In this document: one piece after another, positions 24,709 to 55,717 of the stretch | Layout of the letters: each line of letters begins with the position of its first letter | Numbering within the stretch: the first letter of the stretch is position 1 | Source of the DNA: Clostridia bacterium | GTDB taxonomy: Bacteria; Bacillota; Clostridia; UMGS1840; HGM11507 | NCBI GenBank assembly: GCA_017414505.1 | Contig: JAFQLQ010000022.1 | Coordinates: 1 to 64,000, forward strand | Length of the DNA: 64,000 nucleotides | Reading direction: 5' to 3' | Notes under the pieces: generated by a model | Databases searched by the model: none | Told to the model about the DNA's origin: nothing | Seen by the model: the letters and a program-made list of their open reading frames with translations, nothing else | Position numbers and translations under genes: made by a program

Positions 24709-25419
24709 TTATTGTGTATCCTTATTGCCTTTAAGCGTTTTTGAAAGAATTTCCATTGCGCCTGTTTGATTAAGGTCGTCAAGAAGCTCATCAATAGTGG
24801 TTTTGTCAAACTTTTTAAGCAATCTTGAAATCTGTGAGCGAATTGTTATTTCCTCAACAAAACGTTTTTTTGCAATATCCTTATAGGAATAATTGTTGTA
24901 ATACAAGTCGATAAGAATATCATATTCGGATTTTGAAAGCCTTGCTATAATATTTATACAGTAAAAAAGCGATAAATTCTGCGAAGAAAGACTTTGTGTG
25001 TATTTTAAAAGTGCATCGGTAATTTCGGTACTCAGTGAATTCATACCCGAATAAACCTGATGAATTTTGTCAAGAATCTGTTCAAAGGGGGCTGACTTAA
25101 AAATATAGTCAACGGCACCGTTTGAAAGGGCAGTATAAATTTGTGAAGGCTCATCGTGAACGGTAAGAATTATTATTTTCGTATCCGGTGAAGCTTCTTT
25201 TAAAATGGGAATTACGTCTGTTCCTGCAGAATATGTTTCAAGCTGAATATCAAGCAGGAGTATGTGGGGCTTATATTGCTTTACGTGATTAATACAATCG
25301 GAAGTGTTGTGTGTCATTCCAGTGAATTCAATATCATGGCACACATCAAAATAGTTTTTAAAGTAATTACAAAGCTCAATAACATCATCACATATTGCAA
25401 CTTTTATTTTTTCATTCAT
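24709..25419 (-). CDS. Response regulator with LuxR/NarL-type DNA-binding domain
   Basis: The 236-residue regulator has a receiver domain (about 3-120) with acidic Asp11-Asp12, phosphoacceptor Asp57 in LLLDIQL and a lysine in IFKSAPFEQ. A helix-turn-helix follows (about 165-225), seen as LSKSEYDILIDLYYNNYSYK, then TIRSQISRLLKKF. It resembles the NarL/LuxR output group but is diverged. It follows the sensor kinase gene by 18 bp in the same operon. Its position beside the degradation locus suggests control of that locus. Confidence 0.88.
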   Translation of the reverse strand: MNEKIKVAICDDVIELCNYFKNYFDVCHDIEFTGMTHNTSDCINHVKQYKPHILLLDIQLETYSAGTDVIPILKEASPDTKIIILTVHDEPSQIYTALSNGAVDYIFKSAPFEQILDKIHQVYSGMNSLSTEITDALLKYTQSLSSQNLSLFYCINIIARLSKSEYDILIDLYYNNYSYKDIAKKRFVEEITIRSQISRLLKKFDKTTIDELLDDLNQTGAMEILSKTLKGNKDTQ

Positions 25420-25437: not shown

Positions 25438-26907
25438 CTATTTGTATGGAAAAGATAATTGAAAGGTTGTGTGGGAATCCACCACGCTTTTAACATCTAT
25501 ATTTCCGCCGTAAAGATTCATTATGTTTTCTACATAATTAAGTCCCATTCCCCAGTTTTTAGCGCTTTTCTTTGAAGAACTGAGCGGCGAGAAAATATCA
25601 TTTATTTCATTTTTCGGTATACCGCAGCCGTTGTCTGTTATATCTATATAGACATACGGAAGCTCTATGTTGACACTTACCTGTATTTTGCCGTCGGTAT
25701 TTCCTTTGTGTGCAATGGCTTCGATGCAATTCTGAAAAAGATTGATAAAGCATTCTGTAATATGCGTTGGATCAAGCTTTAAAATTACAATGTCAAAAGC
25801 ATATTTTCTTTCTATAGCTATTCCGTTAAAATTAATGGACTGAATTGCGGTTTCAATGCATTTAATTATGTCCGTATCCTTTGTCTGGGGTGAAACATCA
25901 TTAATAAGGTCAATAATTTTCGAGATGTGATTTAACCCGTTCGATGCAATGGACTGAATATCATTAAGGTTGCTTATTAAAATCTGAGGATTCAGTTCTT
26001 TTAAATCTATTGCCTGTTCCGCAAGCTTTTCCACCGTTACAAGAATGTTTTTGTTGCTGTGAAGAATCATACGAAGATTGTGGTTCAGTTTTTTGGAATT
26101 TCTGGCATATTTTTTCTTGGTTGTTATTTTGAAATATTCAAAAGGATTAAAGAATACCGACAAAATGAAAATTATCGAAAACAAAAGCAATGTTGACGGA
26201 ATCATTCCAAATGAAAAGTCGGTAGAAAACATTCTGCGCGGAAATTTTAACAAATCCATATTCCAGGGTGCAAAAGCAGAATGAATTGAAACTAAATAGT
26301 AGTACAGCAAAAACACTACAATGGTGAACTGTGCGGTAATTGTTGTTATAAGACGGCGTTTGTTGATATACGCTTTTGAGCGGAAATAATCTCTCAAAAA
26401 TATCAGAAGCGGTAAAATAAGATGGATTATGAATATACCGCAGGAATACCAGTTGCACAGTTTTTCAAGAGTTGTATAAAACGAAACGGGCGTAGTGGGT
26501 GTAAAACTGTGTATTCCGTAAAACAGATATTCCGTAAAATCGGGCGATGTTACAACAAGAAAAAGAATAATTGTTATTACCGATGCAACCGGAAGAGCTT
26601 TTTTTATATTTGAAACCAGCACAACTGTATAAGTCATACTGAACATAATTATAGCCATACCGAGGTTGTATATGTAAGATACAACATTCATTTTAATATG
26701 AAGATTTGAAAAAATGAAATATAAGAAGTTGTCAATATCGTTATAGTACATATATACCGAAAATTTAATGGAGAATAAAATAGAGGCAATCATAACAATA
26801 AATATTCCGGTAAAGCTGATTATAAAACCGCGGAAAAGTTTACTGTTAAAGTGAAACAGCGAACTTATCAGGGCAAAAACTATAAGTAGTATCAGAGAAA
26901 TAAACAT
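25438..26907 (-). CDS. Membrane sensor histidine kinase
   Basis: The protein has 489 residues from the ATG at 26907, preceded by AAAGG. Earlier in-frame starts at 26949 and 27006 lie at or upstream of the promoter's -10 box and cannot be used. About eight membrane helices span residues 1-255. The phosphoacceptor is His283 in LRMILHSNKN, followed by an ATPase domain with NCIEAIAHKG (N box), DITDNGCGIP (G1) and GMGLNYVENIM (G2). The long polytopic sensor with no periplasmic domain suggests that it reads a membrane-embedded or transport-linked signal. It pairs with the response regulator downstream. Confidence 0.88.
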   Translation of the reverse strand: MFISLILLIVFALISSLFHFNSKLFRGFIISFTGIFIVMIASILFSIKFSVYMYYNDIDNFLYFIFSNLHIKMNVVSYIYNLGMAIIMFSMTYTVVLVSNIKKALPVASVITIILFLVVTSPDFTEYLFYGIHSFTPTTPVSFYTTLEKLCNWYSCGIFIIHLILPLLIFLRDYFRSKAYINKRRLITTITAQFTIVVFLLYYYLVSIHSAFAPWNMDLLKFPRRMFSTDFSFGMIPSTLLLFSIIFILSVFFNPFEYFKITTKKKYARNSKKLNHNLRMILHSNKNILVTVEKLAEQAIDLKELNPQILISNLNDIQSIASNGLNHISKIIDLINDVSPQTKDTDIIKCIETAIQSINFNGIAIERKYAFDIVILKLDPTHITECFINLFQNCIEAIAHKGNTDGKIQVSVNIELPYVYIDITDNGCGIPKNEINDIFSPLSSSKKSAKNWGMGLNYVENIMNLYGGNIDVKSVVDSHTTFQLSFPYK

Positions 26908-26947
26908 AATAACAGCCTTTCGGGTAAATTTGTTGTATCTTATTTTC

Positions 26948-26976
26948 ATTTTACGACAATAAACATTATTCGTCAA
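26948..26976 (-). promoter_or_regulatory. Promoter of the two-component operon
   Basis: On the minus strand, TTGACG (26971-26976) and TAAAAT (26948-26953) have a 17-bp spacer. The implied transcription start lies near 26940, which fixes the kinase start codon at 26907. Confidence 0.75.
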
Positions 26977-27018
26977 GTGGAAAAGAAATATTTGAAAAAA
27001 TTTCAATATCCGGCTGTG

Positions 27019-27047: not shown

Positions 27048-27075
27048 TTAATTAACAACGAAAGGAGTGCTACTG

Positions 27076-27963
27076 ATGAGCATATTTTTAAGATTTCCCG
27101 GTGGTAAATTCAAGGCTCTTACGCTTAGCTATGATGATGCCGTAACCGCAGATATAAAACTGATAGAAATACTGAATAAATACGGTATAAAGGCAACTTT
27201 TAATATAAGCAGCTGCTTTTTTGCAAAAGATGATAACGGACATTATCTTTCAAGGGAAACGGCACTTAAGCTGTATTCTTTATACGGTCACGAACCTGCT
27301 ATACATACGGCAACCCATAGATTTATAACCGAATTGCCAACTGCAGTTGCAATGGATGAAGTTGTGAACGATAAAAAGGCTTTAGAAAAAATGTTCGGAA
27401 AAATAATAACCGGCGGAGCGTATCCGTTTGGCGATAACGATAATAAAATTGAAGAAATTATGCGTTATGCAGGGCTTAAATATTGCCGTGCACTTCAAAG
27501 ACGTTACTGTCATAATCTCGAAAAACCTATTCCACACAGATTTGATATGCCTGTTAACTGGTTAAGATGGTTGCCCTCCTGCCACCATAATGATCCACTG
27601 CTTATGGAAATGGCAAGACAATTTGTTGATATGAAGATTGATAAAAGCTTCAAGTGGGGCACAAAACCAAAGCTGTTTGCTCTTTGGGGACACAGCTACG
27701 AGTTTAATGATGATAATAACTGGGAGGTTATTGAAAAATTTGCTGAATTTATTGGCGGTAAAGACGATATCTGGTATGCCACGAATGGCGAAATATGTGA
27801 ATATGATGAATGTTTTAAGCGTCTTGAATTTTCAACCGACGGAAGCATAGTTAAAAATCCAACTTATCGCACAGTATGGGTTGCGGTGGATAACAATGAG
27901 TACAAAATAGAAGCGGGAGAAATAATCCGGGTGGAAAGAGATGAAGAATTTATCGGAGGATAA
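27076..27963 (+). CDS. NodB-type polysaccharide deacetylase, cytoplasmic
   Basis: The protein has 295 residues from the ATG at 27076, 8 bases after AAAGGAG; a GTG at 27067 overlaps the ribosome site. The NodB fold shows motif 1 TLSYDDAV with Asp20-Asp21 and the metal ligands His77 and His81 in HTATH. Family members de-N- or de-O-acetylate chitin, peptidoglycan or xylan oligomers. No signal peptide is present, so it would act on imported oligosaccharides. It leads the rightward cluster and ends 1 bp before the first lyase gene. Confidence 0.85.
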   Translation: MSIFLRFPGGKFKALTLSYDDAVTADIKLIEILNKYGIKATFNISSCFFAKDDNGHYLSRETALKLYSLYGHEPAIHTATHRFITELPTAVAMDEVVNDKKALEKMFGKIITGGAYPFGDNDNKIEEIMRYAGLKYCRALQRRYCHNLEKPIPHRFDMPVNWLRWLPSCHHNDPLLMEMARQFVDMKIDKSFKWGTKPKLFALWGHSYEFNDDNNWEVIEKFAEFIGGKDDIWYATNGEICEYDECFKRLEFSTDGSIVKNPTYRTVWVAVDNNEYKIEAGEIIRVERDEEFIGG

Positions 27964-27964
27964 A

Positions 27965-30900
27965 ATGAGAAAGAGAATTATATCAATATATCTTGCAGTC
28001 GGCATACTTATAATGTATATGCCGGTTTGTGCTGCAACAAACCGTAAAAATTTAACGGAAAGCTTTTCAATATCGGAAATGATAGTTCCAACAGTATATC
28101 ACTCCTGCCAGTCGGGAGAGGGACTTCGCAATACCGAGGGCGGTCCCGTTGTGTATTCTGCAAATGAGAGTGGATATGAGGGATATTACATTACAGCACC
28201 TGAACTTTCGGAGGACAAATTTTTAAATGCGTATAAATATATGTGTACTGGTGCAGTTGATGAGGCAGGCAACCGTATTGAAATGAAAACAAAATATATT
28301 GAACGTAATTCTTACTGGGTATATATGCCCTCAGACGGTCTTTTAAGGAACGGCGAAAGCCTTGATGTTGGCGATGGTATATATTTTTCCTTTTACTATC
28401 GCAGTGCTCCGGGCTTTATTTCGCCAACTGACGGAAAAACGTATACCGGTGAGGATGTTAGTTTCAAAACCTGCTTTGTACATAACTCGGGCTACGGTAC
28501 AACAAGCTTCAGTAATATTGAAACATTTAAGAATCCAACCATGATGGTTGCAGACGGAAAGTGGCATCGTGTTGAATTTATCGGTCAGGTAAACAGCGGT
28601 ATAATGGACAGAATAAATAATCTTAAAGAGGGAAAAATTCCGTTTCTTATTTGTTTCGAGGATTTGTCGAAGCAGTCTTTTATTGAAATGACGGGCTTTC
28701 GTATGGGAATACTGGATGTTAATCAGGAAAATTCCGATAACAGCTATAGCCGTATTTATACCGAAATGTCCTGGCATCTGTCTAAAAACAGTCTTGACAG
28801 TATTACAGTAAACGGTACGGAGCTTAATCTCATAAATGGAAAATCGAAATATACCGTAAAGAATACCTCGGATGAAGTGAGTATAAGCGGAAAATCAAAC
28901 AGCGGAGCGACATATGAAGTAATAAAAAATACCGGCAGTGAGTATGTTATAAAAGTAAAATCCGCAGGCTATGATTTTACAAAAAATGCCGGTGAAACTG
29001 TTACATATCAGGAAAAAGTTAACGCTTTGACGGGAGATTATTTCTCCTTGGGAACAAGACGAGCCTTTTCGGTTAAAAATTCCGATATGTATAAGGAGCA
29101 GTATACAATATATCTTAATGATAATATATTTTCTTCGCCATTAAGAGATTTTCCCGAAACTCCGATTTTTACGGGAAGTTCTGATGAATTTAAAAAAGAA
29201 GAATATCTGGAATGGCTAAGCGAGGGACTAAGCGAAAATATGGTTGAGGAGGTTCTTTGGGGAAATATTGCCTTTGTAAAGAACAACTCAAACTACTGGG
29301 TAAGCGATGAAAAATTTACTGCACCGCATAATGCGCTGATTTTTGAAAACGGTGAATATTATATTTTATCTCAGCTTGCGGATGAAATTTTCGGTGTCAA
29401 ATCAGAGGAGCTTTATATAATGCTTAATGAGGTAGTAAATGCGACCGACTACGAAATTTTTATTGATCCGAGAGGATTCGTTTTGTTTTCCCGTCATATG
29501 GAACAGAGTATTGATAAATCGCCTGTAAAACAGAATGATTTAGCCTACCGCCATTATAAAAGCTACTATGCCGTTACAATGGCAATAGGAGAAATAACCT
29601 GGAATAATATAACCCCCTCAGAGGAGGATTATACTGAATTTGAAACTAAGCGTGAAGAAATGATGCTTGTTTCACCTGATATTGCATCGTCTTACGGTGA
29701 ATTTATAACAAATCAGATTTCGACAGTTTCGGCACATATGGATTTGTTTGATGAAAACAACGAAAACCTGTTTACGGACAGTCCTTCGGTATCGGTAAAA
29801 TATTCCCGTATGCTTGAAATGGCAAAATGTTATAAAATGCTTGAAAATAACGGGAGAACTGATCTTGACTGCGAAAAACTTCTGCAAATGATTCTGGCGC
29901 TTTTAGAAAATCTTTATAATACTCATTTTTCAAAAAATGAAATGCTGGAGCCTGTTGAGAACTGGTTTGCAAATTTAATTACTTATCCCACAAAAACAGC
30001 CGACACACTTCTTCTTATAAGGGAAAAAATTTCACCTGAGCTTACCGAAAAATATGTAAATGCGTGGAATATAATTACTGCAGACCCTTGCATAACCAAA
30101 TTTCAGGTTCCGTATAAATACGATACGCATAATGTCTCGGCGGATTTATCAAATCCTTGCAGTAACTATACAAATCTGCTTTGGCGTTCTCATACTGTTA
30201 TTAAGCTTAATGCACTTATACGAAATTCCGAAAGAATAAACAGAACTCTTAAATATCTAAGCGGAATATTTGAATATACTTCGGGCAGTAAAAAATCAGA
30301 TGTTAATTTAATTAAAGACGGCTTTTATGAGGACGGAAGCTTTGTTTTTCATTCCTATTATGCGTATAATACCGGTTACGGAAAATCCTATACCGCCGAA
30401 CTGGCAGAGCTGTTGAGCGCAACTGTAAATACTGCCTTTGATGTAAAAAATATTTACGGATACGAAAATATTTATAATTTTATGACGGATAGCTGGATTC
30501 CTTTTATAACCGGCAATCAGGTTACAAAATTTGCTTCGGGAAGAGAGCTTCCCACACAGGCAACTCCGATGGTTACGGCAATGCTCATAATACTTTCTCA
30601 CGCACCCGAAAATGTTAAACAAAAGGCAGGAACAAAGCTTAAGGCTCATGTTTCTATGAACAGCTACAAAAAGCTTACTTCAAATCCCGGGAACTATTAT
30701 TCCTACATTTATCCAACCCTTCAGCAGGATATAAACGAAATGGTAAGCTATATCAATACTCTTCCCGATACTAAAGAAAATTACAGTAATGTATATTACA
30801 ATATGGACAGAGTAATTCACAAAAAGAATGATTACACCTTTATGCTTGCTATGTCTTCCGAACGTACCGATCGTTACGAGGCGATTCAGGAACACGGTTA

Positions 30901-32098
30901 TTCCGACTGGTATATAGGCGACGGTATGACCTGTTTTATAACCGATTCCCGTCAGTACCATATCGGATGGTGGTCGAGAGCAGATAAATATAAAATTCCC
31001 GGTACAACCGTTGACAGTACAGAGCGGAATCCCAACACAAGCAAATACGGAAATCACAATGCCGAAAATGAGTGGGCAGGCGGAGCTACCGACGGAAATA
31101 TAACCGTTGCAGGAATGATTCTGCCCGGAAATATTACGGATTCGGAGGTGAAGCTTACAGGTAAAAAGTCGTATTTTATGCTTGATAATGAAATCGTTTG
31201 TATGGGCAGTAATATAAAGGGCGGAAACTGTGAGGTTTATACAACGGTTGATAATTTATGGCTTAAAAGTACGCAGGATGAAGTTTTAACAAACGGCACT
31301 CCGCTTACAACGGAAACTGACAAAAAGGAATATTATGAAAATCCTGAATACATGTGGACAGATAACAGAGGTTATGTTTTTATGGGTGAAAATACCCTTT
31401 CCTGCGAGCGAGCGGTAAATAACAAGCGTTACACCGGTGCAGGCAAAACAAACAGTAGAAATACCGAACCGTTTTTACACATTCTTCTTGAGCATGGTGC
31501 TTCACCCGAAAATGCTTCTTACATATATGCGGTTTTGCCGAATGCAACTAAAGAAGAAACTGCAAATTACAGTAAAAATCCTGATTTTGAAGTGATTTCT
31601 GCAAGCAGTACGCTTCACGCAATAAAACTCACGCAAAGCGGAATTATGATGGCAAATATTTTTGAACCGACAACTATTTCGGGAATAAATTTTAATACCC
31701 CTTGCAGTGTAATTTTAAAGCCTTACGGAAACGGGTATAAAATTTATGTTTCCGATCCTACACATAAAAAGGATAACATTTCGGTTGAATTTAGCGATGA
31801 TAAAACTGTTTGCGGAGGCAAATTTACCGAAAACGGAATAAGTATTGATATTGAAAATCCGGGAAAAACTTATCAGCTTATTTACAGCGATTTTATGGAA
31901 GATAAGGGAAAAATTACCTCCCTTGGCGAAAAAACACCTCTTATTGCGGCATACCTTAACGATAAGCTTCTTGATGTGAGTAGTTCGGGTACTTTTATAA
32001 TGCCTGAAAAAGCTGATGAAATAAAGGCTTTTTACTGGAAATCCATTGATTCTTTAACACCCGAAAAAACCGCAGAAACACTCACTTTTCTGCCCTGA
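27965..32098 (+). CDS. Secreted PL8-family polysaccharide lyase with novel N-terminal domain
   Basis: The protein has 1377 residues from the ATG at 27965, just after CGGAGGA. A signal peptide (1-24) is followed by an unrecognised domain (about 28-320) shared with the next two genes. The PL8 catalytic alpha/alpha domain follows (about 404-870) and then beta-sandwich domains. PL8 hallmarks are His796 and Tyr805 in FHSYYAYNTGYGKSY (the H-x8-Y catalytic pair), an Asn-Trp-like SNYTNLLW, and the block YNMDRVIHKKNDYTFMLAMS followed by SDWYIGDGMTCF and YKIPGTTVD. PL8 enzymes cut hyaluronan, chondroitin or xanthan by beta-elimination next to uronic acid. It is longer than most PL8 enzymes (700-1000 residues) because of the added domain. 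Confidence 0.85.
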   Translation: MRKRIISIYLAVGILIMYMPVCAATNRKNLTESFSISEMIVPTVYHSCQSGEGLRNTEGGPVVYSANESGYEGYYITAPELSEDKFLNAYKYMCTGAVDEAGNRIEMKTKYIERNSYWVYMPSDGLLRNGESLDVGDGIYFSFYYRSAPGFISPTDGKTYTGEDVSFKTCFVHNSGYGTTSFSNIETFKNPTMMVADGKWHRVEFIGQVNSGIMDRINNLKEGKIPFLICFEDLSKQSFIEMTGFRMGILDVNQENSDNSYSRIYTEMSWHLSKNSLDSITVNGTELNLINGKSKYTVKNTSDEVSISGKSNSGATYEVIKNTGSEYVIKVKSAGYDFTKNAGETVTYQEKVNALTGDYFSLGTRRAFSVKNSDMYKEQYTIYLNDNIFSSPLRDFPETPIFTGSSDEFKKEEYLEWLSEGLSENMVEEVLWGNIAFVKNNSNYWVSDEKFTAPHNALIFENGEYYILSQLADEIFGVKSEELYIMLNEVVNATDYEIFIDPRGFVLFSRHMEQSIDKSPVKQNDLAYRHYKSYYAVTMAIGEITWNNITPSEEDYTEFETKREEMMLVSPDIASSYGEFITNQISTVSAHMDLFDENNENLFTDSPSVSVKYSRMLEMAKCYKMLENNGRTDLDCEKLLQMILALLENLYNTHFSKNEMLEPVENWFANLITYPTKTADTLLLIREKISPELTEKYVNAWNIITADPCITKFQVPYKYDTHNVSADLSNPCSNYTNLLWRSHTVIKLNALIRNSERINRTLKYLSGIFEYTSGSKKSDVNLIKDGFYEDGSFVFHSYYAYNTGYGKSYTAELAELLSATVNTAFDVKNIYGYENIYNFMTDSWIPFITGNQVTKFASGRELPTQATPMVTAMLIILSHAPENVKQKAGTKLKAHVSMNSYKKLTSNPGNYYSYIYPTLQQDINEMVSYINTLPDTKENYSNVYYNMDRVIHKKNDYTFMLAMSSERTDRYEAIQEHGYSDWYIGDGMTCFITDSRQYHIGWWSRADKYKIPGTTVDSTERNPNTSKYGNHNAENEWAGGATDGNITVAGMILPGNITDSEVKLTGKKSYFMLDNEIVCMGSNIKGGNCEVYTTVDNLWLKSTQDEVLTNGTPLTTETDKKEYYENPEYMWTDNRGYVFMGENTLSCERAVNNKRYTGAGKTNSRNTEPFLHILLEHGASPENASYIYAVLPNATKEETANYSKNPDFEVISASSTLHAIKLTQSGIMMANIFEPTTISGINFNTPCSVILKPYGNGYKIYVSDPTHKKDNISVEFSDDKTVCGGKFTENGISIDIENPGKTYQLIYSDFMEDKGKITSLGEKTPLIAAYLNDKLLDVSSSGTFIMPEKADEIKAFYWKSIDSLTPEKTAETLTFLP

Positions 32099-32120
32099 TA
32101 TAATATTTGAAAAAAATTCA

Positions 32121-32151
32121 ACTTCCCAAGAAGTGTGAAAATTGCTATAAT
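32121..32151 (+). promoter_or_regulatory. Extended -10 promoter with inverted repeat before the second secreted gene
   Basis: TGCTATAAT (32143-32151) is an extended -10 box with a weak TTCCCA at -35 (32123-32128). ACTTCCCAAGAAGT (32121-32134) is an inverted repeat covering the -35 region and is flanked by further partial symmetry. This suggests a regulated internal promoter. Confidence 0.55.
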
Positions 32152-32201
32152 AAAACCAACAAAAATATATAGCGTTATTCAAAATGAAAGGAAGTAATAA
32201 A

Positions 32202-34742
32202 ATGAAAAAACTAATTTCAATCCTATTGGTAGTAACTATGCTTTTTTTAAGCACGGTTATTGTACTGGCAGGAAAAGACGATATGACAAGTAAATTTTAT
32301 TTGTCAGATATCGGGTATCCTGCAGAGGTTACAAAATATGTAAACGGAGACAACTATAAATCTGTAAACGGCGGACCGGTAGTTTACGGGGAAGGTCATA
32401 CCGATAAGTACAATACAAGCGGTGGGCTTCTCACTTACGGATACTATCAGAGTCCCGTTGTACTTACAAACGATGTATTTTCGCAGGCTGTTCCGTATAT
32501 GTGCTACGGTGTGGAAAATTCAACAACTTACTCGAATAATAATAATCAGATAAGATTTGTTCTTGATTCACCTGCTGAAATTAAGGAAAATGACGGTATT
32601 TATATTTCGTTCTATTATCGTGCGGCAGATAGCTTTTACGGTGTAGGAGGTAAGGCTTCAACACCGTACACCGGCGTACAGTCTCAGATGGTACTGTATG
32701 CTCTGGATAACGCAAACCAGAATGTTCAGGTTATAAGTGATACTCAGGCATCAGGCGTGCTTAATTCTTCAAAGGTGACAATTGTTCCCGATAACACATG
32801 GCACAGACTTGATATGACAATTATGATGGATTCTGCAAATTATGCAAAGCTTTCCGATAAAACAAAATTTAATATGGCAATTAACTTAAATCAGATATTT
32901 GATGCATCATATATTGAATTTGCAGGGTTCCGTATGGGTGTTTTAAGACCTGAAGAAGCTATAACATATAATCAGATGCTTACAGAGGTTTCCTGGCATT
33001 TGCAGAAGAAGGTTCCCTCGGCTATAACTGTTAACGGAACAGCGCTCGATTTAGCAAGTGGAGCAACTGAATTTACGGTTCCCGGCAAAATGGATGAAGA
33101 ACCTGTTGTTGCCGTTTCAAGTGATGACGGCGTACAGTATGAAGTGGAAAAGCTTGCATATAACCGCTATAAGCTTACAACTTATGCAGGTGGTTATGAT
33201 GTGGTAAAAACGTTGGAAGAAAATGTAATGTTTCGTGAAAGATACAATAATGGTGCGTTTTCAGGAAACAACAATTATCCTAAATATTTAAACAGTGCTC
33301 TTGTAGGTGAAACCTACTACATCAACATTGATATAGAAGATAATTTTACAATGTATCCTCTTTCCACCGATTGGGATGCAGTTGCACACGGCTGCGATAA
33401 TTCCTTAAGAAACGTATGGGCTGAATATACAAGCTATGCGCGCAGTCCCGAAACCTGGGCAGACGATACCACATTCAAAAGCGGATACACAATGAAGCTT
33501 TTAAAGCCTGATGACGGAAGTAAGCCTACACAGACCTTTAATACAATGCAGGCTAAATTTGACTTGGGTGACGATACAATTGAAACAGGGGATATAGTTT
33601 ATTTCCATTTTTATATTAAGAGTGATACGTCAAATGTAAGATTTACACCTACTCTTCTTGGTAAGGATGCAAAAAACAGCACCCCTGCAACCGATGACAC
33701 AGCAGCTGTTAACGTAAATGTTAAAACATCTTGTCTTGCATATGGTCCTACAAAAATAATTAATGGAACTTATTTTAAAAATTCCAGTACAAATTATCCG
33801 TTAGTAAAAACAGATACATGGTTAAAATTCACCTGCTGGTACAGAGTAACAGAGGATTGCCGCATTGAGGATACTGTTTCACTTCCGATTTACTTCAATT
33901 GGTTTACTTCGGCTGATTATGCACCGGCAAATATTAAAATGGCAGATTTCAGCTGCGGTGTTTTAAGAAACTTCACACCTGTTACAACAGAACAGTATCT
34001 GAACGATCAGGTTAACACAGCTCTTACTGCAGCATTAACAGAAGCAATTAATGTTTATGATTTTAAAGTAGACGGAAAATCCTTTGAAACCGAAGGCGAA
34101 ACAACTGTTGTTTCTGAAGCTTCTGTTCCTGCTCCCGAAATCGGAATGACAGCATATCACGGTGCACTGCCCGTAAATATTACAAGAGAGCCTGCAGGTA
34201 ACAGTCTTCCTGCTGAATATACCGTAAAGGTTTATTCTCCTGCATACGATAAATCTCTTGCGGAAACTGCAACATTAAACGATGCTTATGGCTTTTATAA
34301 CAGACCTGTTACTGCTAATGATGATGGAACCTACACAAGAGAGAATAAGGATATTACAAATATAAAGAATTCCTCTCAGGTTAAAACCTATTCACTTATG
34401 GTTAGCAAGGCTGAAGATTATTCCGACTATGTATTTGAAATTGACGGTAAAAGAGTAACAGATTTCACAAACCTTAAGGGTTCAAATGCAACCTTTGGTG
34501 CACGCTTTGATAAATTTGACACCACAGGCTATAAAATGATTCTTGCCGCTTATGATGCAGATAAAAAGCTTGTAAGCGTTAATCCTGTTTCCTATACATA
34601 TTCCGATACGGATACCGACAGTTATGCTGAAGTATCGGCAGGAGCAAGCAAGGATGAAAATCTTACATTCAAGGTATTTGTATGGGATAACGAAGAGCCC
34701 TTAACCGACGTTATTAATATTGACAGCAACGGTATTAATTAA
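32202..34742 (+). CDS. Secreted multi-domain beta-sandwich protein, unrecognised
   Basis: The protein has 846 residues from the ATG at 32202; an ATG 18 bases earlier overlaps the AAAGGAAG site. A signal peptide (1-23) is followed by the N-terminal domain shared with the neighbouring PL8 lyase and the next gene, including NDGIYISFYYRA, NTWHRLDM and YNQMLTEVSWHLQKK. A second domain of the same style (about 385-615) contains GDIVYFHFYIKSDT and TWLKFTCWYRV. The last hundred residues form the domain ending FKVFVWDNEEPLTDV, also seen in two later genes. No catalytic motif was found. It is most simply a glycan-binding protein (inference). Confidence 0.7.
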   Translation: MKKLISILLVVTMLFLSTVIVLAGKDDMTSKFYLSDIGYPAEVTKYVNGDNYKSVNGGPVVYGEGHTDKYNTSGGLLTYGYYQSPVVLTNDVFSQAVPYMCYGVENSTTYSNNNNQIRFVLDSPAEIKENDGIYISFYYRAADSFYGVGGKASTPYTGVQSQMVLYALDNANQNVQVISDTQASGVLNSSKVTIVPDNTWHRLDMTIMMDSANYAKLSDKTKFNMAINLNQIFDASYIEFAGFRMGVLRPEEAITYNQMLTEVSWHLQKKVPSAITVNGTALDLASGATEFTVPGKMDEEPVVAVSSDDGVQYEVEKLAYNRYKLTTYAGGYDVVKTLEENVMFRERYNNGAFSGNNNYPKYLNSALVGETYYINIDIEDNFTMYPLSTDWDAVAHGCDNSLRNVWAEYTSYARSPETWADDTTFKSGYTMKLLKPDDGSKPTQTFNTMQAKFDLGDDTIETGDIVYFHFYIKSDTSNVRFTPTLLGKDAKNSTPATDDTAAVNVNVKTSCLAYGPTKIINGTYFKNSSTNYPLVKTDTWLKFTCWYRVTEDCRIEDTVSLPIYFNWFTSADYAPANIKMADFSCGVLRNFTPVTTEQYLNDQVNTALTAALTEAINVYDFKVDGKSFETEGETTVVSEASVPAPEIGMTAYHGALPVNITREPAGNSLPAEYTVKVYSPAYDKSLAETATLNDAYGFYNRPVTANDDGTYTRENKDITNIKNSSQVKTYSLMVSKAEDYSDYVFEIDGKRVTDFTNLKGSNATFGARFDKFDTTGYKMILAAYDADKKLVSVNPVSYTYSDTDTDSYAEVSAGASKDENLTFKVFVWDNEEPLTDVINIDSNGIN

Positions 34743-34758
34743 CAAAAACTCTTATTTA

Positions 34759-34791
34759 AGCTGCAAGGGGAATGAAATCCCCTTTGCGGCT
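34759..34791 (+). terminator. Intercistronic stem-loop
   Basis: AGCTGCAAGGGG (34759-34770) pairs, with one bulge and one wobble, with CCCCTTTGCGGCT (34779-34791). It is not followed by a T-run, so it may be an mRNA-stabilising or processing hairpin rather than a full terminator. Confidence 0.55.
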
Positions 34792-34813
34792 CAATTGACT
34801 TATGGAGGCGACA

Positions 34814-36262
34814 ATGAAAACAAAAATAATAGCATTTTTATCAGCAGCTGCATTGATATTGTCGATGTGCCCCGTTTTTGCTGAAAGCACTGAAAGCAAT
34901 CTTACAACATCATTAAGATTAACCGAGCTTAATCTGCCGGTTATATATCACTCCTGTAATAATGATTTCAGACATACAAGTACGGGTGCACAATCTGTTG
35001 TATGGTATGGCGACGGAGGTTACTGGAGAACTACACTCACGCTTGATGATGGCTCTCCTTTTGACAAGGTATACAGATATGTATGTGAAGGCGGCGGAGG
35101 AACTCTGCAATATGCAAATAATAATCTTATTCAGCTTACTATTCCCACAACGGGGCTTTTAAAGGAAGGAGAAAAGCTGGAGGTTAACGACGGATTATAT
35201 CTTGCTTTGTATTACCGCTCGAAAAGTGAATTTACTTCGCCTATAAGCGGCGAAGTAAAGCAGGGAAATAACGTTAAGGTTCAGCCCTCCTTTGTTCATA
35301 ATTCCTACTGGAACAACAATGGAGCAAGGGTTTTCAATCTTACTTCGGGAGAAAACAGTCCCGAATTTATTGCAGACGGTAAGTGGCACAAGCTGGAAAT
35401 GGCAACCGATGTTATTTCTGATATGCTTGCGGACAACAGGGCAACTCCTGAATTTCCGAATTTAATTTTTCAGATATGCTTTGGTAATGTTAATTTACCC
35501 TCATATATTGAATTCGGTGCGGCTCAGGCAGGACTTTTAAAAACTGATAAATCCCTTTCTGACAACACATGGAACAGAATTTATACAGAAATGGGCTGGC
35601 AGCTTAAAAATACTGCTCCTATAGAAATAAAGGTAAACGATACTATTGTAAAGGTTGAAAACGGTGTATATGAGTATACTGCGGCGGCAGATTCCCTTGA
35701 AACTCCCGAAATAGAGGTTGTTTCTGATAACGGGCTTACCTACGAGGTGGAAAAGCTTTCAAACACTCAGTATAAGGTTGTAACCAAAGCTCCGGGGTAC
35801 GATATTTTAAAGGATGCCGATGGCGTAACAACCTACAAACAGCGTATTGATACCCAAACCGGAGAGTATAAGGCAAACGGAACCGTTCAGCTTTATGATG
35901 TTACCAACGCTGAAATGGTGCAGGAATATATAATTAATCTTGATGTTCCAACTGCCGAAGCAAATATACGCATAGGATATATGGAAACTGATGATTTAAC
36001 AGGCTGTGGCAGCGGCGACAGTGTTGAAATTGATGTTAAATATTCAAATATAGAAAACAGAGAATACAACTATTTAACAGTTCTTGTACTTCGTAACGGT
36101 GCGAAGGTTGTTCGTGTAGTGCCCTTCCATGTAACTGTTGCAGAGGATGAGGTTGCACAGGAGCTTACTCACAAATATACTCTGACGGATGATGATTATA
36201 CCGGAGTTAAAGCTCAGTGTTATGTAATTGATATGACATCAAAAAGCAATGTTCTTAAGTAG
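34814..36262 (+). CDS. Secreted protein with the shared N-terminal domain, unrecognised
   Basis: The protein has 482 residues from the ATG at 34814, after GGAGG. A signal peptide (1-22) precedes a domain (about 28-330) closely matching the start of the first PL8 lyase: LPVIYHSCNN, NDGLYLALYYRSKSEF, ADGKWHKLEMA and WNRIYTEMGWQLK. An Ig-like C-terminal domain follows (about 350-482) with GDSVEIDVKYSN and VKAQCYVIDM. There is no catalytic domain, so it looks like the lyase's accessory domain made as a free protein. Glycan binding is the best guess. Confidence 0.72.
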   Translation: MKTKIIAFLSAAALILSMCPVFAESTESNLTTSLRLTELNLPVIYHSCNNDFRHTSTGAQSVVWYGDGGYWRTTLTLDDGSPFDKVYRYVCEGGGGTLQYANNNLIQLTIPTTGLLKEGEKLEVNDGLYLALYYRSKSEFTSPISGEVKQGNNVKVQPSFVHNSYWNNNGARVFNLTSGENSPEFIADGKWHKLEMATDVISDMLADNRATPEFPNLIFQICFGNVNLPSYIEFGAAQAGLLKTDKSLSDNTWNRIYTEMGWQLKNTAPIEIKVNDTIVKVENGVYEYTAAADSLETPEIEVVSDNGLTYEVEKLSNTQYKVVTKAPGYDILKDADGVTTYKQRIDTQTGEYKANGTVQLYDVTNAEMVQEYIINLDVPTAEANIRIGYMETDDLTGCGSGDSVEIDVKYSNIENREYNYLTVLVLRNGAKVVRVVPFHVTVAEDEVAQELTHKYTLTDDDYTGVKAQCYVIDMTSKSNVLK

Positions 36263-36275
36263 ATGAGGTTGTTAT

Positions 36276-39200
36276 ATGATAAAAAGAAAAATTTCTGCAC
36301 TTCTTGCGGCAGTAATTGCAGTATCTTATGTATCAGGTGCTTTTGCGGCATACGATCCTGCAAAAAATCCTATGACAGTTATTCCCGAAAGTGACATTTT
36401 TAAGGGTGACGGTGATACCTTTACCCGGGAACAGTTTCAGGAATGGATGAATAAAGGTCTTAGCGAAAATGGCGTGTACAAAGTGCTTGACGGCAATTAT
36501 GCTTTTGTTATAAATCAGGATAACTGGTGGAATCTTAATCACAACGAAACTTTTAGCGGAAACACCGCAATTATGTCAAACGACGGCACATATTCCATTA
36601 ATTCTGCACTTGCACAGAAAATTTTTGGTGTTACCGCAAGCGGAGAATACATAACTATCAAAGATATAGTTTCAAAAACAAGCGGATGGGAAACCTTTGT
36701 TGATCCAAGAGGCTTTTGTCTTTTCAGTAAAAATATGGATAAGGCTATCAATAAAGAGCCTGTCAGCCTTGAAAAATACAACGGTCAGGATGCAAAGCAG
36801 TATTCAAGCTATTATGCAGTAGGTCAGGCGATAGGAGAAATCACCTGGGATAATCTTGATCTTACCGATGCAGATTTTGATGCTTATCTTTCAAACTGGA
36901 AGAAAACTCTTACACAGCTTGATGTAATTTCCGAATATGAAGATTACATAAAATGGGCGTTTGACCAGACCAAAGGCTTTATGGAAATGTTCGATGAAAC
37001 AAGCGTAAGCGGTTTCTCGGATAACAACATTTATCAGGGATTTTTACGATTAAGATATATGTCGGAGGCTTATGTAACGCTTGTTCATCTTAACAGAAAC
37101 GATATAGATGCGGTAGAATTAAAGCGTCAGATTCTTCATATAATGGAAACCCTTTATCAGAATCAGTTTTCCGTAAATGCTGCTATGCTTCAGACGGTTA
37201 CCGACTGGTTCAACACAAGAATAGTTTACCCCTATTATATGGCGGATGCCCTGCTTCTTATGTGGGACGATGTTCCTGAGGACAGACGTCTGAAGTATAT
37301 AAATGCAGGTCTTATTATAACTGTTGAAGGACAGATTTCAAGATTTGCAATTCCTCCCAAGGAAAGCGTAATAGACCAGACAATGCAGCATCTTATAAAT
37401 CCTTATAATAACTGGACAAATTTCCTCTGGTGTGTTCACGCATCCATAAGATGGGCAGCTCTTGCCCGTGATGAATACCGTATGAACAGATATTTCAAAT
37501 ATTTGTGTCAGGTATTTGAGGAGAGTACAGCGAGCGGTAATTTCCTTGATACCCCCTCAGTTCGTGACGGTATTTACGAGGACGGAACCTTTAAATTCCA
37601 CAACTGGTTCTTTTACGGACTTGGCTACGGTGCTTCTATGGCTATGGAAATTTCCGAAGTGCTTATGACAACTATCGGAACACGCTTTGACTTAAGAAAA
37701 CAGTATGGCTACGAAAGGGTTTACAACTGGATAGAAAAATCGTGGATTCCGCTTCTTTACAACGGAGAAATGGTTAAAATTGCAACGGGACGTGAATCGC
37801 AGGGATATCATAGTGCATTTGCCATAATTACTGCGATTATGACTATTGCCGAGCAGGCTCCTTCGGAAACAAGAGAAAAACTTTTAAAACAGCTAAAACC
37901 TGCAATCGGAGATAAAATGGAATATTATCGTGATATTCCCGGACGAATTCAAGGATATTATTCGTTTATATTCCCCACGGTTCAGGAAAATATCAACGAA
38001 GCAGTTAAATATGTGGATTCAATTGAGGTTGAAAATCCTGTATATACAAAGGTGTACTACAATGGCGATAAAGTTGTTCAGAAAAATGAGGATTACACCT
38101 TTATGCTTTCTATGTCCTCGGAGAGAATAGGTCGCTATGAAGCTATCAATAATCAGAGCTACGGCGACTGGAATATAGGAAGCGGAATGACTTATATTAT
38201 AAAGGATGCGGTGCAGTTTTCACCGAGCTGGTGGTCGGCTGTGGATAAATATAAAATTCCCGGAACCACCGTAGACGGAATGATTCACAGAATCAATTCT
38301 GAATACGGTCTTGGTCAGCCTGAAAATTCATGGGCAGGCTCGGTTACAAACGGAACATATACAGCATCTTCCATGCAGCTTCCCGGTAACTGGCGCTGGG
38401 CAGAAACCAAATTTACGGGAAATAAATCCTATTTTATTCTTCCTGATAAGGTTATCTGCTTAGGTTCAGATTTTACGGGAGGTCAGGGAGACATTACAAC
38501 TGTTATTAACAATGTAATGCTTAATAAAACAAGAGAAACTCCCGAAGAATGTTATATAGGTGAAAAAACGGTTACAAAAGAATTTGATAAAAAAGAAATT
38601 TTTGAGGACACACGCTACATCTGGGAAGGTAACCGCGGTTATGTGTTCCCCGAGGGTGCAACAGTAAGTGCGGAGCGTGTAAAAGATAACAAAAAATTCG
38701 TAGGCTGGGGAGTTACACATTCTCCCACCGACGATCCCTTTATGACACTTCTTATTGAGCATGGCTCAAGCGAAAAGGTGGCTGAATATTCATATGTAAT
38801 TATTCCCGAAATAAGCCTGGAGGAAACAAAGGCTTATAATCCTTCGGAAGAATTTGAAATTTTAAGAAAAGATTCTGTTATGCACGCTGTAAAGCTTAAG
38901 GAAAACGGTGTTGTAATGGCAAACATCTTTAAACCTGCCAAGCTTATGGGCTTTATGTTCAATACTCCCTGCTCTGTGATTTTAGAGCCGGTAAATAGCG
39001 GATATAAGGTGTATATTGCCGAGCCTACGCAAAAAGCTTCGTATGTAAAGCTTGAGCTTCCCGAAGATAAAGCGGTTTCCAACAGCACAAGCGAGATTAT
39101 AAAGGATAAAAAAACCGTAAGTATCAAGGTTGATGATAACTATGGCAAAACCTATTCCTTTGACTACAATCTTGACGGAAGCAGTGAACTTAAAAAGAAC

Positions 39201-39458
39201 GAAAATATTGTTGTAAGAGATATGAAAATTAAAGTGGGCAGTAAAAAAATTCTTACAACTCTTTACGGCGAGGCTAAAAACGGAGCTTCACTTAAATTTT
39301 CAATAAGCAAGCTTCCAGAAAACGGTTCTGCAAGAATTATTTCAAACAGACTTGAATATATTCCGGGAAAATCGGTTTCTTATAGCGATGAAATCGTTAT
39401 TGCGGCAAAAACCGACGATAACTGTATTTCTGAGTACAGAATTATGATTGAAAAGTAA
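36276..39458 (+). CDS. Secreted PL8-family polysaccharide lyase
   Basis: The 1060-residue protein has a signal peptide (about 1-24). The PL8 alpha domain holds NNWTNFLWCVHASIR and the catalytic pair His442 and Tyr451 in KFHNWFFYGLGYGASM. The beta domains include YNGDKVVQKNEDYTFMLSMS, GDWNIGSGMTYI and DKYKIPGTTVDG. A C-terminal Ig- or cadherin-like domain (about 970-1060) may bind polysaccharide. It is collinear with the catalytic part of the lyase at 27965-32098, including the DPRGFCLFSKNMDKAI block, so the two are paralogues. Substrate preference (hyaluronan, chondroitin, xanthan or other) is not readable. It starts 13 bp after the previous stop. Confidence 0.88.
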   Translation: MIKRKISALLAAVIAVSYVSGAFAAYDPAKNPMTVIPESDIFKGDGDTFTREQFQEWMNKGLSENGVYKVLDGNYAFVINQDNWWNLNHNETFSGNTAIMSNDGTYSINSALAQKIFGVTASGEYITIKDIVSKTSGWETFVDPRGFCLFSKNMDKAINKEPVSLEKYNGQDAKQYSSYYAVGQAIGEITWDNLDLTDADFDAYLSNWKKTLTQLDVISEYEDYIKWAFDQTKGFMEMFDETSVSGFSDNNIYQGFLRLRYMSEAYVTLVHLNRNDIDAVELKRQILHIMETLYQNQFSVNAAMLQTVTDWFNTRIVYPYYMADALLLMWDDVPEDRRLKYINAGLIITVEGQISRFAIPPKESVIDQTMQHLINPYNNWTNFLWCVHASIRWAALARDEYRMNRYFKYLCQVFEESTASGNFLDTPSVRDGIYEDGTFKFHNWFFYGLGYGASMAMEISEVLMTTIGTRFDLRKQYGYERVYNWIEKSWIPLLYNGEMVKIATGRESQGYHSAFAIITAIMTIAEQAPSETREKLLKQLKPAIGDKMEYYRDIPGRIQGYYSFIFPTVQENINEAVKYVDSIEVENPVYTKVYYNGDKVVQKNEDYTFMLSMSSERIGRYEAINNQSYGDWNIGSGMTYIIKDAVQFSPSWWSAVDKYKIPGTTVDGMIHRINSEYGLGQPENSWAGSVTNGTYTASSMQLPGNWRWAETKFTGNKSYFILPDKVICLGSDFTGGQGDITTVINNVMLNKTRETPEECYIGEKTVTKEFDKKEIFEDTRYIWEGNRGYVFPEGATVSAERVKDNKKFVGWGVTHSPTDDPFMTLLIEHGSSEKVAEYSYVIIPEISLEETKAYNPSEEFEILRKDSVMHAVKLKENGVVMANIFKPAKLMGFMFNTPCSVILEPVNSGYKVYIAEPTQKASYVKLELPEDKAVSNSTSEIIKDKKTVSIKVDDNYGKTYSFDYNLDGSSELKKNENIVVRDMKIKVGSKKILTTLYGEAKNGASLKFSISKLPENGSARIISNRLEYIPGKSVSYSDEIVIAAKTDDNCISEYRIMIEK

Positions 39459-39473
39459 ACGAGGAGAAACAAT

Positions 39474-41108
39474 ATGAAAAAGAAACTACTGATAACAGCA
39501 CTGATGATGTTTTCTCTTTCTTTGTCGTCACACGCACAAATCAGCGATACAGAGCTTTCCTACAAAGCTGATAACCGCAACATTGCAGTTATCAGCGGAA
39601 AAACAAGCTTTGGAGAAAATACAAAAATTACTGCGGCAATATTTGCCGACGGTAAATATTACACCGATATAACGGCGGAAAAGGATGCCCTTGATGTAAG
39701 CTCCATACTGGCGGATGTACATACTGTATTTGCTGATGAAAACGGTAAATGGAGCTTTGAATGGGAAAATCTCACTTCAGGCGATTACGATTTATATATA
39801 ACCGAAAATAAAGTTGAAAATCCGAAAATTGATTTATTTGTTGCCGCAGGAATGCGCGAAAAATATGCCGGCCTGGTTACGGCTTCAGAACAGGAGCTGG
39901 GCACTCTTTTCGGTGACGAAATAACATTTAAGTCGTTTTATACCGAGGATGATGAAAGAAATCTTGTGACCGATACATCAAAGGTCGGAGCAGCTCTTTA
40001 CAGCATCCGTAGCGGACTTATCAGCGCAGGAGACATTGAAGGTTATCTTGATACTGCACTTCTTATGGCGTCACTTAACGAAAAGGGTACTAAAGATTCG
40101 CTTGATTCGGTTTTAAATAATCTTAGTGAAAAACAACTTTCAGAGGACTGGTATTCGGTTTATAACAAATCTTCTGATAATATAAAGAGTAAAATCGCCG
40201 CAGATATTGCATCGGTATCAACAGGTAAAACTATTAAAGAATTTAACGATTTGTTAAAGGAAAAGCTTATTTTAAAAGGCGTTTTGTATTCTGCCAACTG
40301 GACTGACGCGCAAATGTATCTTGAACTGCTTTCAAATCCCCATTATGAGATGTATAAGCAGGATGCGGCAATAGCGGTAGTTGGTAATGAATATAATGAT
40401 ATTACGGCTTTAAATAATGCATTATTGCAGGTGGCTATAAACAGACCTGTTATAATTTCTCCGTCAGGCGGCGGTGGCGGTGGTGGTTCATCGGGCAGAG
40501 GTTCATCCGCAGTTGCGGTAATAGAGCCCGTTGAAACAAAAAAAGAAGAAACTGAGGTTGTTGAAAATATTATTTTCAACGACGTTCCGTCTTCCCACTG
40601 GGCTTATGACTGCATAAATTATTTAAGATGGAATGATATTGTTGACGGTGACGACAATGGAGATTTCAGACCGGAGGATAATATCACAAGAGCAGAATTT
40701 GTAAAAATTCTTTGCGGAGCTTTAAAGCTTACATCAGTATCATCGGTAAGCTTCAACGATGTTAAGCCTGATTCCTGGTATAATATGTATGTTCAGAATG
40801 CGGCAGGCAACGGAATTGTAATGGGGGATAACGAAGGTAACTTCAATCCCGATGCTCTTATTACAAGGCAGGATTTAGCGGTTATGATTCACAGAGCGGC
40901 TGTTAACCTGGGCGCAGAGCTTATAAACGAAAAGAGTTTTAACGATAGCTTAACTGTTGATGATTACGCTCAGAATGCGGTTTCCCATCTTGCCGGAGCC
41001 GGAATTATAAGCGGCGACGGAGTTAATTTTAATCCCCATAATCAGGCAACAAGAGCTGAAGCGTCAGCTATTATTTACAGAGTGATGAAGCTTGCGGGAA
41101 AACTGTAA
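39474..41108 (+). CDS. SLH-domain surface protein
   Basis: The 544-residue protein has a signal peptide (1-21). An Ig-like domain follows, with the pattern AVISGKTSFGENTKITAAIF and WSFEWENLTSGDYDLYI, then an alpha-helical middle and a glycine/serine linker (about 330-345). Three SLH repeats end the protein (about 364-540): FNDVPSSHWAYDCINYL, FNDVKPDSWYNMYVQNA and YAQNAVSHLAGAGIISG. SLH repeats bind pyruvylated cell-wall polymer, so this protein sits on the cell wall. No enzymatic motif is present. It may anchor or organise the degradation apparatus. Confidence 0.9.
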   Translation: MKKKLLITALMMFSLSLSSHAQISDTELSYKADNRNIAVISGKTSFGENTKITAAIFADGKYYTDITAEKDALDVSSILADVHTVFADENGKWSFEWENLTSGDYDLYITENKVENPKIDLFVAAGMREKYAGLVTASEQELGTLFGDEITFKSFYTEDDERNLVTDTSKVGAALYSIRSGLISAGDIEGYLDTALLMASLNEKGTKDSLDSVLNNLSEKQLSEDWYSVYNKSSDNIKSKIAADIASVSTGKTIKEFNDLLKEKLILKGVLYSANWTDAQMYLELLSNPHYEMYKQDAAIAVVGNEYNDITALNNALLQVAINRPVIISPSGGGGGGGSSGRGSSAVAVIEPVETKKEETEVVENIIFNDVPSSHWAYDCINYLRWNDIVDGDDNGDFRPEDNITRAEFVKILCGALKLTSVSSVSFNDVKPDSWYNMYVQNAAGNGIVMGDNEGNFNPDALITRQDLAVMIHRAAVNLGAELINEKSFNDSLTVDDYAQNAVSHLAGAGIISGDGVNFNPHNQATRAEASAIIYRVMKLAGKL

Positions 41109-41130
41109 AAAAGGAGGTTGTACAGCTATA

Positions 41131-43803: not shown

Positions 43804-45174
43804 ATGAAAAAACTATTGAAACTGACAAGTGCGGTATTATGTGCAGTAATGCTTACAGGAACACTTTCGGGATGCGGAGGAATAGGCCCCGGCTCATCGG
43901 ATAATACGGTTACAATCTGGTCGGGCGGAACCGGAAGCAAATCTGAATTTGATAAAGTGGTTCGGGAATTTAACGACACTATAGGTAAAGAAAAGAACAT
44001 AAAAATTATCCACGAAGCAAAAGAAAATATGAATCAGGCAATGAGCGTTGCTCTGCAGTCCGGTCAGGCACCTGATTTATTCCAGCAGGGCAGTGTTGCC
44101 GAATATGCGGAAAAAGGCTGGATTTCAGCTCTTGATGACCTTCCGGGCGGCCCTGAACTGATAGAAAAATATAAAGATTTACTTGTTGATTTCAAACAGG
44201 TTTATCAGGGAAAAACATATTCTCTTCCAAGTGCGAAAACAACCTACGGTCTTGTATATAACAAGGAGCTTTTCAAGGAGGCAGGAATTGTTGACGAAAA
44301 CGGCGAAGCAAAGCCTCCCAAAACTCTTGATGAGGTTCGTGAATATGCAAAAATTCTTACAGATGATTCCAAAAAACAGTATGGTATAGTTTTACCCCTT
44401 AAATGGTCAGGATGGTTTTCAACAGAAGTTAAAAATGTTGTAAGAGCCTGTGCAGGCTACACCGGATATGATCCTACAACCGGTGTATACGATTTCAGCT
44501 GTTACAAGCCGGTGCTTGAAATGCTTATGGGAATTAAAGCGGATAACAGTTATATGCCCGGCGCGGAAGGTCTTGATAACGATCCGGCTCGTGCAAGATT
44601 TGCAAACGGTAACATTGGTATGAAATTTGCCGCAAACTGGGATGTTGGCGTGTTTAACGATCAGTTCCCCGCAGAATTCGACTGGGGTGTAGCTCCTATG
44701 CCTACAATCAGCGAAGATGAAAGATATCTTCAGGATGTTGTTTACAACACAGGATATAAAATTTCAAAGGCAAGCGTTGATAAAGGAAATGGCGAAAATA
44801 TTATGTTTGTTTACAACTGGCTGCTTACCAACGAAGCACAGAGAGAGCTTTACAAAATATGCTATGCTGATCCTATTCATCACGATATAGTTGCCGATAT
44901 TGATCCATCCACTCTTAAAAAAGGTTATAAGGAATTTTCCGAGCTTGGCGACATCAGCGTACTTGCTCCGCTTGAACCGCAGGTTGATATTTCGGGCGAA
45001 GTTACTTTAGAGAGAAACTTTATTGATAATGTATGGGCGGGAACAATGTCCATCGACGAAGCAATTGAGCATCACAACAAAGTTATGAATGACGGTGTTA
45101 AGAAATACAAGGAATTAAATCCTGATTACGATCTGGAACAGTTTATTATTCCGGACTGGGATACCCGGCGATAG
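43804..45174 (+). CDS. Sugar ABC importer solute-binding lipoprotein (family 1)
   Basis: The 456-residue lipoprotein has lipobox LSGC with Cys24. The start of the mature domain, VTIWSGGTGSKSEFDKVVRE, is the usual first strand of family 1 sugar-binding proteins. Other family features are APDLFQQGSVAEYAEKGWI and GNIGMKFAANWDVGVF. It binds an oligosaccharide outside the membrane and delivers it to the permeases encoded directly downstream. No ATPase gene is present in the cluster. Confidence 0.92.
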   Translation: MKKLLKLTSAVLCAVMLTGTLSGCGGIGPGSSDNTVTIWSGGTGSKSEFDKVVREFNDTIGKEKNIKIIHEAKENMNQAMSVALQSGQAPDLFQQGSVAEYAEKGWISALDDLPGGPELIEKYKDLLVDFKQVYQGKTYSLPSAKTTYGLVYNKELFKEAGIVDENGEAKPPKTLDEVREYAKILTDDSKKQYGIVLPLKWSGWFSTEVKNVVRACAGYTGYDPTTGVYDFSCYKPVLEMLMGIKADNSYMPGAEGLDNDPARARFANGNIGMKFAANWDVGVFNDQFPAEFDWGVAPMPTISEDERYLQDVVYNTGYKISKASVDKGNGENIMFVYNWLLTNEAQRELYKICYADPIHHDIVADIDPSTLKKGYKEFSELGDISVLAPLEPQVDISGEVTLERNFIDNVWAGTMSIDEAIEHHNKVMNDGVKKYKELNPDYDLEQFIIPDWDTRR

Positions 45175-45183
45175 GAGTTTTTA

Positions 45184-46131: not shown

Positions 46132-46143
46132 GGAGGTACAAAT

Positions 46144-47045: not shown

Positions 47046-47167
47046 GCGTCAGAATCTTAATAAAGAGAAAAGAGAACTGAATTTTGAGAATAGAAAGCCA
47101 AATTAAGTTATGGTATTATTAGTATTGTAATGTGAGATAATGTCTGATATTGAAGGAGGAAATCCAA

Positions 47168-49984: not shown

Positions 49985-50000
49985 CCGGGGTGAAAATGTT

Positions 50001-55686: not shown

Positions 55687-55717
55687 TAAAATAATATAAT
55701 TTTGGAGGTTTATGAAA

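Follow-up and report, generated by a model that had tools for sequence, protein, structure and literature searches.

A probable CBM-like module family carried by PL8 lyases and by lyase-free secreted proteins of a Clostridia bacterium

Three adjacent genes of a Clostridia bacterium encode secreted proteins that start with a similar domain, which is joined in one case to a polysaccharide lyase of family 8 (PL8) and in the other two cases is not. The question was what kind of domain this is, and what role it could have both on an enzyme and apart from one. The genes were analyzed within a stretch of 64,000 nucleotides (positions 1 to 64,000 of contig JAFQLQ010000022.1, hereafter the window). The features of the locus, with paralogues on another contig (C1) of the same genome where these were found, were as follows.

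24709-25419, minus strand: response regulator of the locus, from the open reading frame (ORF); C1 paralogue, E=1.4e-58
25438-27006, minus strand: sensor histidine kinase of the locus, from the ORF; C1 paralogue, E=2.4e-72
27067-27963, plus strand: polysaccharide deacetylase, opening the same-strand run; Pfam PF01522, 3.3e-14
27965-32098, plus strand: PL8 lyase A, with signal peptide, module, Ig-like linker and PL8 catalytic region; Lyase_8 1.3e-55, Lyase_8_N 5.6e-25, Lyase_8_C 1.5e-13
28049-28780, plus strand: module copy 1, tethered to PL8 lyase A; leave-one-out HMM score 65.3 bits
28799-29110, plus strand: Ig-like linker between module and PL8 region; phmmer match to the linker of the 486-aa protein, 2.3e-14; strands in the model
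32184-34742, plus strand: 852-aa secreted protein without a lyase, with two module matches and no Pfam or NCBIfam match
32280-33002, plus strand: module copy 2, free; leave-one-out 49.3 bits
33342-34025, plus strand: free and diverged module copy 3; 17.1 bits in the leave-one-out test, with 8.5 as the maximum over 500 shuffles
34437-34733, plus strand: C-terminal domain of the 852-aa protein, ~100 aa; iterated HMM, 4.4e-24
34802-36262, plus strand: 486-aa secreted protein without a lyase, with one module, Ig-like linker and C-terminal domain; positional counterpart of a 395-aa C1 protein
34898-35605, plus strand: module copy 4, free; leave-one-out 60.2 bits; structure model with pTM 0.68
36276-39458, plus strand: PL8 lyase B, without the module; Lyase_8 1.3e-47; sister of lyase A, support 99/98
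39474-41108, plus strand: SLH protein with three repeats, a candidate for anchoring at the surface or for a part of the S-layer; SLH 5.7e-34; C1 paralogue, 1.1e-86
41092-43776, plus strand: second SLH-containing protein; SLH 1.4e-7; C1 paralogue, 1.8e-23
43804-46995, plus strand: whole ABC sugar transporter, from the ORFs
43804-45174, plus strand: ABC binding protein; C1 paralogue, 1.3e-134
45184-46131, plus strand: first ABC permease; C1 paralogue, 3.2e-119
46144-46995, plus strand: second ABC permease, from the ORF
47150-52289: genes of GH20, glucuronyl-esterase-like and heparinase II/III-like proteins, immediately downstream of the transporter end of the locus

A preliminary description of this DNA had claimed that the three genes share an N-terminal secreted domain, and the comparisons bore this out. 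The three main module copies were 22-36% identical in pairs, the 486-aa protein, used as the query of a translated search, matched the other two proteins (E=3e-62 and 4e-30), and these three copies scored 49-65 bits in leave-one-out HMM tests, when the best of 500 shuffles reached at most 9.4 bits. Signal-peptide-like N-termini were present on all three proteins, and the three motifs pointed out earlier were each found in three copies, as DGIYFSFYYRS, DGIYISFYYRA and DGLYLALYYRS, as WHRVE, WHRLD and WHKLE, and as IYTEMSWHL, MLTEVSWHL and IYTEMGWQL. The domain of ~300 residues (28-320) was a truly shared region, but a composite one. It consisted of a jelly roll of about 228-245 aa, the C-terminal helix of which bears the YTEMSWHL motif, and of the first part of the Ig-like linker (about 110 residues) that comes after the module in all three proteins. 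The split into tethered and free forms likewise stood, whereas the count of one tethered and two free copies did not, because a further, diverged copy lies in the 852-aa protein (aa 387-614) and brings the window to four.

Lyase A was recognized as a full PL8 enzyme with the Asn/His/Tyr/Arg catalytic motif, namely DGSFVFHSYYAYNTGYG, the GRE motif, and NLLW aligned with NRLW of a Paenibacillus xanthan lyase. No recognizable catalytic domain was found in the 852-aa and 486-aa proteins by Pfam and NCBIfam scans, and no anchor was identified on the lyase-free module proteins. The ~100-aa C-terminal domain was common to 20 proteins (of the window, L011, L012 and L037-L042) and stood at the extreme C-terminus in 18 of them; it often closed with K-x-F-(V/I/L)-W, had no Pfam match among the carriers scanned, and is possibly a surface-retention or sorting domain. 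Within the window it also formed the ends of 55712-59104 and 59168-61870. These two genes encode large secreted proteins with repeats of an unrecognized unit (LVNYDADSDFITLDFNQ...) and lie beside another ABC transporter; Pfam gave no match for the former and weak matches only for the latter.

A weak match led to a locus on contig C1 (L011) with five further module copies: an 848-aa protein has three, a 1209-aa PL8 lyase one and the 395-aa protein one. The window and C1 copies were homologous by HMM (E=2.8e-10, reciprocal 1.1e-5) and by hhalign (probability 96%). The locus itself is duplicated: the response regulator, the kinase, both SLH proteins, the binding protein and the first permease all have C1 paralogues (E-values above). 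The gene order is partly different, with the C1 transporter genes and the 848-aa protein standing upstream of the lyases. Each locus has one PL8 lyase with the module and a sister PL8 (lyase B) without it, the two being mutual closest relatives in the tree (support 99/98 for both pairs).

All nine copies, four from the window and five from C1, outscored their own 500 shuffled controls in the leave-one-out profile tests, the copy at aa 387-614 of the 852-aa protein being the weakest. Identity across copies ranged from 13 to 42%, and the window copies carried large insertions. Every copy was net acidic (-3 to -12). Strong matches to the module were confined to this genome among 391 genomes of the class and 398 of the phylum (the samples overlap), thus the strict family is very restricted within the genomes searched. 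Two scans of genome contigs for module relatives found none. The G351 match (0.0011) was discounted as a family relative, its host protein having no evident link.

The claim that the domain belongs to no known family held in searches of Pfam, NCBIfam and PDB sequences, which returned chance matches only. The Pfam model PF02018 (CBM_4_9) matched none of the members of the nine-copy alignment even at E<=10, and a PF02018 search of the genome gave no recognized CBM_4_9 domain. The fold was read from a single AlphaFold model of the nine-row alignment, which superseded an earlier three-row model that was too weak (pLDDT 54). A beta-sandwich with a C-terminal helix was predicted with medium confidence (pTM 0.68, mean pLDDT 62.7). 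The structural dissimilarity of the copies that would have spoken against the earlier proposal was not seen, the model being a joint one of all nine rows. Its Foldseek neighbours in the PDB included CBM22, CBM30, CBM4, CBM15 and Stig cyclases (E 3e-5 to 1e-3), and SGBP-B of B. thetaiotaomicron (7kwc) was also matched. The TM-scores to known CBMs were low, about 0.42-0.52 when target-normalized and about 0.32-0.36 when query-normalized, and non-CBM proteins (EphA2, MAM, Stig cyclases, viral proteins) were also among the structure matches.

Beyond this genome, the nine-copy profile matched the module at the N-terminus of a GH10 enzyme (4.4e-7), as well as two domains assigned by Pfam to CBM_4_9 (7e-6 and 0.005). 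When the nine-copy and C1 profiles were aligned by hhalign to a CBM_4_9 profile of 22 domains, scores of 30-32 and probabilities of 40-57% were obtained; among the controls, 60 shuffles of the columns never exceeded 14.6, reversing the profile gave 15, and profiles of the SLH, C-terminal and Ig domains scored 10-16. The four-copy window profile reached a score of 21 and a probability of 3.6%, falling short because its copies were too few and too inserted, and the similarity to CBM_4_9 depends on the C1 copies. The module thus probably belongs, as a distant member, to the CBM4/9/22-type jelly-roll group, and its fold is probably not new. As a CBM in the CAZy sense would be, it is a non-catalytic domain within PL8 lyases, found N-terminally at two loci. 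Hence, of the earlier proposal of a new CBM family with tethered and free forms, a CBM-like role remained the best reading of the fold, the CBM_4_9 profile and the locus, while novelty applies to the family and probably not to the fold.

The wider genome was then considered by profile searches of the genome and the retrieved stretches. Eighteen PL8 (PF02278) genes were counted in 2.4 Mb, on contigs C1, C2, C8, C11, C14, C16, C29 and C53. Any PL8 was present in only 27 of the 391 class genomes; this genome had the most first-look candidates of the class sample, 18 against 12 for the second, and the scored counts there stand as at least six for many genomes. In the PL8 tree, built from 18 of 21 sequences (three were left out by the trimming motif), the clades agreed with the type of N-terminal module. 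Type 1 is the family described here, type 2 is CBM_11-like or Lyase_N-like, and type 3 has no Pfam match. Proteins without a lyase carried each of these types, as PL8 lyases did, so that tethered plus free forms are the rule in this genome. The CBM_11-like type was also seen in tandem on proteins without a lyase, and joined to SLH repeats. Since a recognized CBM occupies the same N-terminal slot at these sister loci, the CBM reading of the unrecognized module is supported.

The type 3 module, of ~200 aa, was present in five copies on a 1931-aa PL8 lyase and in several lyase-free proteins (L037:5648-8509, L037:11825-13189, L038:5031-12173). Two lyases (L012:4064-7786, L039:8183-12007) have an F5/8 type C (discoidin) domain within their PL8 super-sandwich domain, where the Lyase_8 match splits near profile position 170-216; split PL8 matches on C29 and C11 suggest similar insertions there.

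The genes nearby encode GH88, GH20, glucuronyl-esterase-like, GH51 and heparinase-II/III-like proteins, and about ten GH88 genes were counted genome-wide. These neighbours and the GH88 count indicate a uronic-acid-containing glycan as the probable ligand. A sulfated glycosaminoglycan was not favoured, the heavily sulfated ones being disfavoured because only two sulfatase-family matches exist in the genome. Among PL8 enzymes in the PDB, the Paenibacillus xanthan lyase came closest to lyase A (1.2e-54), but xanthan was not accepted as a settled substrate, since chondroitin and hyaluronate lyases match lyase A as well. The net acidity of all modules speaks mildly against a capture of the polymer by simple electrostatics.

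Of the known systems, CBM70 is the N-terminal module of the PL8 hyaluronate lyase of Streptococcus pneumoniae; it binds hyaluronan, its crystal structure is a beta-sandwich jelly roll with family 4 as the nearest CBMs, its binding groove is positively charged, and the enzyme is presented at the surface (PMC4175358). The module resembles it as a non-catalytic N-terminal domain on a PL8 lyase with a beta-sandwich jelly roll, here predicted. It differs in being net acidic, and in occurring also in lyase-free proteins, whereas CBM70 is described as part of an enzyme (PMC4175358). The CBM70 structure being published, PDB chains were searched with single sequences and profiles and gave no significant match to the module. 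CBM_4_9 and CBM22 are alike as fold neighbours of the model and in distant profile similarity, but the Pfam model matches no copy and the window copies are heavily inserted. The CBM_11-like and Lyase_N-like modules of the sister loci are also N-terminal on PL8 and present in lyase-free tandem proteins; however, they are not related by profile comparison (score 12.7), and some are fused directly to SLH repeats.

Bacteroidota possess enzyme-free multi-domain binding proteins of the SusE/F and SGBP type, encoded with a degrading enzyme and a transporter. By analogy, the module proteins that lack a lyase and lie beside lyase and transporter genes may be comparable, although this bacterium has an SLH-type envelope and an ABC importer where Bacteroidota have outer-membrane lipoproteins and a TonB system. 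Literature on PL8 with SLH, or on Monoglobus, offered nothing useful.

Other explanations were weighed against these data. The module could be a docking or assembly domain, through which the copies on the lyase and the free ones attach to one shared partner at the surface, such as the SLH proteins, or to each other, rather than to sugar. Lyase A and the free proteins do have both the module and the Ig-like linker in common, an SLH protein gene adjoins in both loci, EphA2 and MAM-type jelly rolls were among the structure matches, and sequence conservation is low with no obvious sugar site. We nevertheless regard docking as unlikely, because CBM_11, a recognized sugar-binding family, fills the same slot in the sister loci, the profile similarity points to CBM_4_9, and no cohesin or dockerin was reported among the proteins scanned.

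Somewhat less likely still, the module would serve the lyase as a structural spacer or as a folding domain, and the free proteins would be S-layer-like structural or adhesive components with no specific ligand. The Ig-like linker repeats, the high divergence of the copies (13-42%) and the lack of the module on lyase B in both loci are consistent with such a role. It is opposed by the retention of separate proteins with one to three module copies in both paralogous loci, and by the identity of the lyase-borne window copy with a free copy (36%), which exceeds that between the free copies (22%). That the lyase-free proteins are themselves catalytic, as a lyase, esterase or hydrolase of an undescribed type built on a jelly roll, appears very improbable. 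Enzymes do exist among jelly-roll proteins, and Stig cyclases were in the top fold matches; however, only Tyr105 and Trp163 (numbered as in the module of the 486-aa protein) were invariant over the nine copies, and no acid/base pair was conserved.

We proposed that the module is a CBM-like jelly roll related to CBM4/9/22 which founds an undescribed family, and that its tethered and free copies hold the polymer for the PL8 lyases. This is the probable reading. The data show the family and its nine copies, the duplicated locus and the tethered and free arrangement recurring at sister loci; the fold class is predicted at medium confidence. Counted against it were the model built from nine sequences, the low TM-scores, the acidic modules and the existence of jelly rolls with non-sugar roles. 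The lyase-borne module, joined by the Ig-like linker, would keep the PL8 enzyme on its polymer. The lyase-free proteins, with one or two modules (up to three in the C1 locus), would bind the same polymer extracellularly and may retain it close to the SLH-bearing surface, while the lyase products would be imported via the ABC transporter of the locus. What we infer is that the module binds carbohydrate, that the free proteins stay at the surface and that the ligand contains uronic acid. The whole would represent a PL8-centred glycan-utilization locus in two paralogous copies, each with its module set.

A broader interpretation is tentative and slightly short of an even chance: a lineage-restricted glycan-binding module family may have radiated together with its PL8 lyases, each locus having its own matched tethered and free set with specificity for a uronic-acid polymer, as an SGBP counterpart in an SLH-bearing bacterium. 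With this finding, the modules attached to PL8 lyases gain a CBM-like family not described before. With two paralogous loci, three module types, tethered and free forms and 18 PL8 genes, this one genome is a natural experiment, which makes it testable whether ligand specificity is common to the free modules and the lyase of their locus, and how such bacteria keep acidic glycans at their surface.
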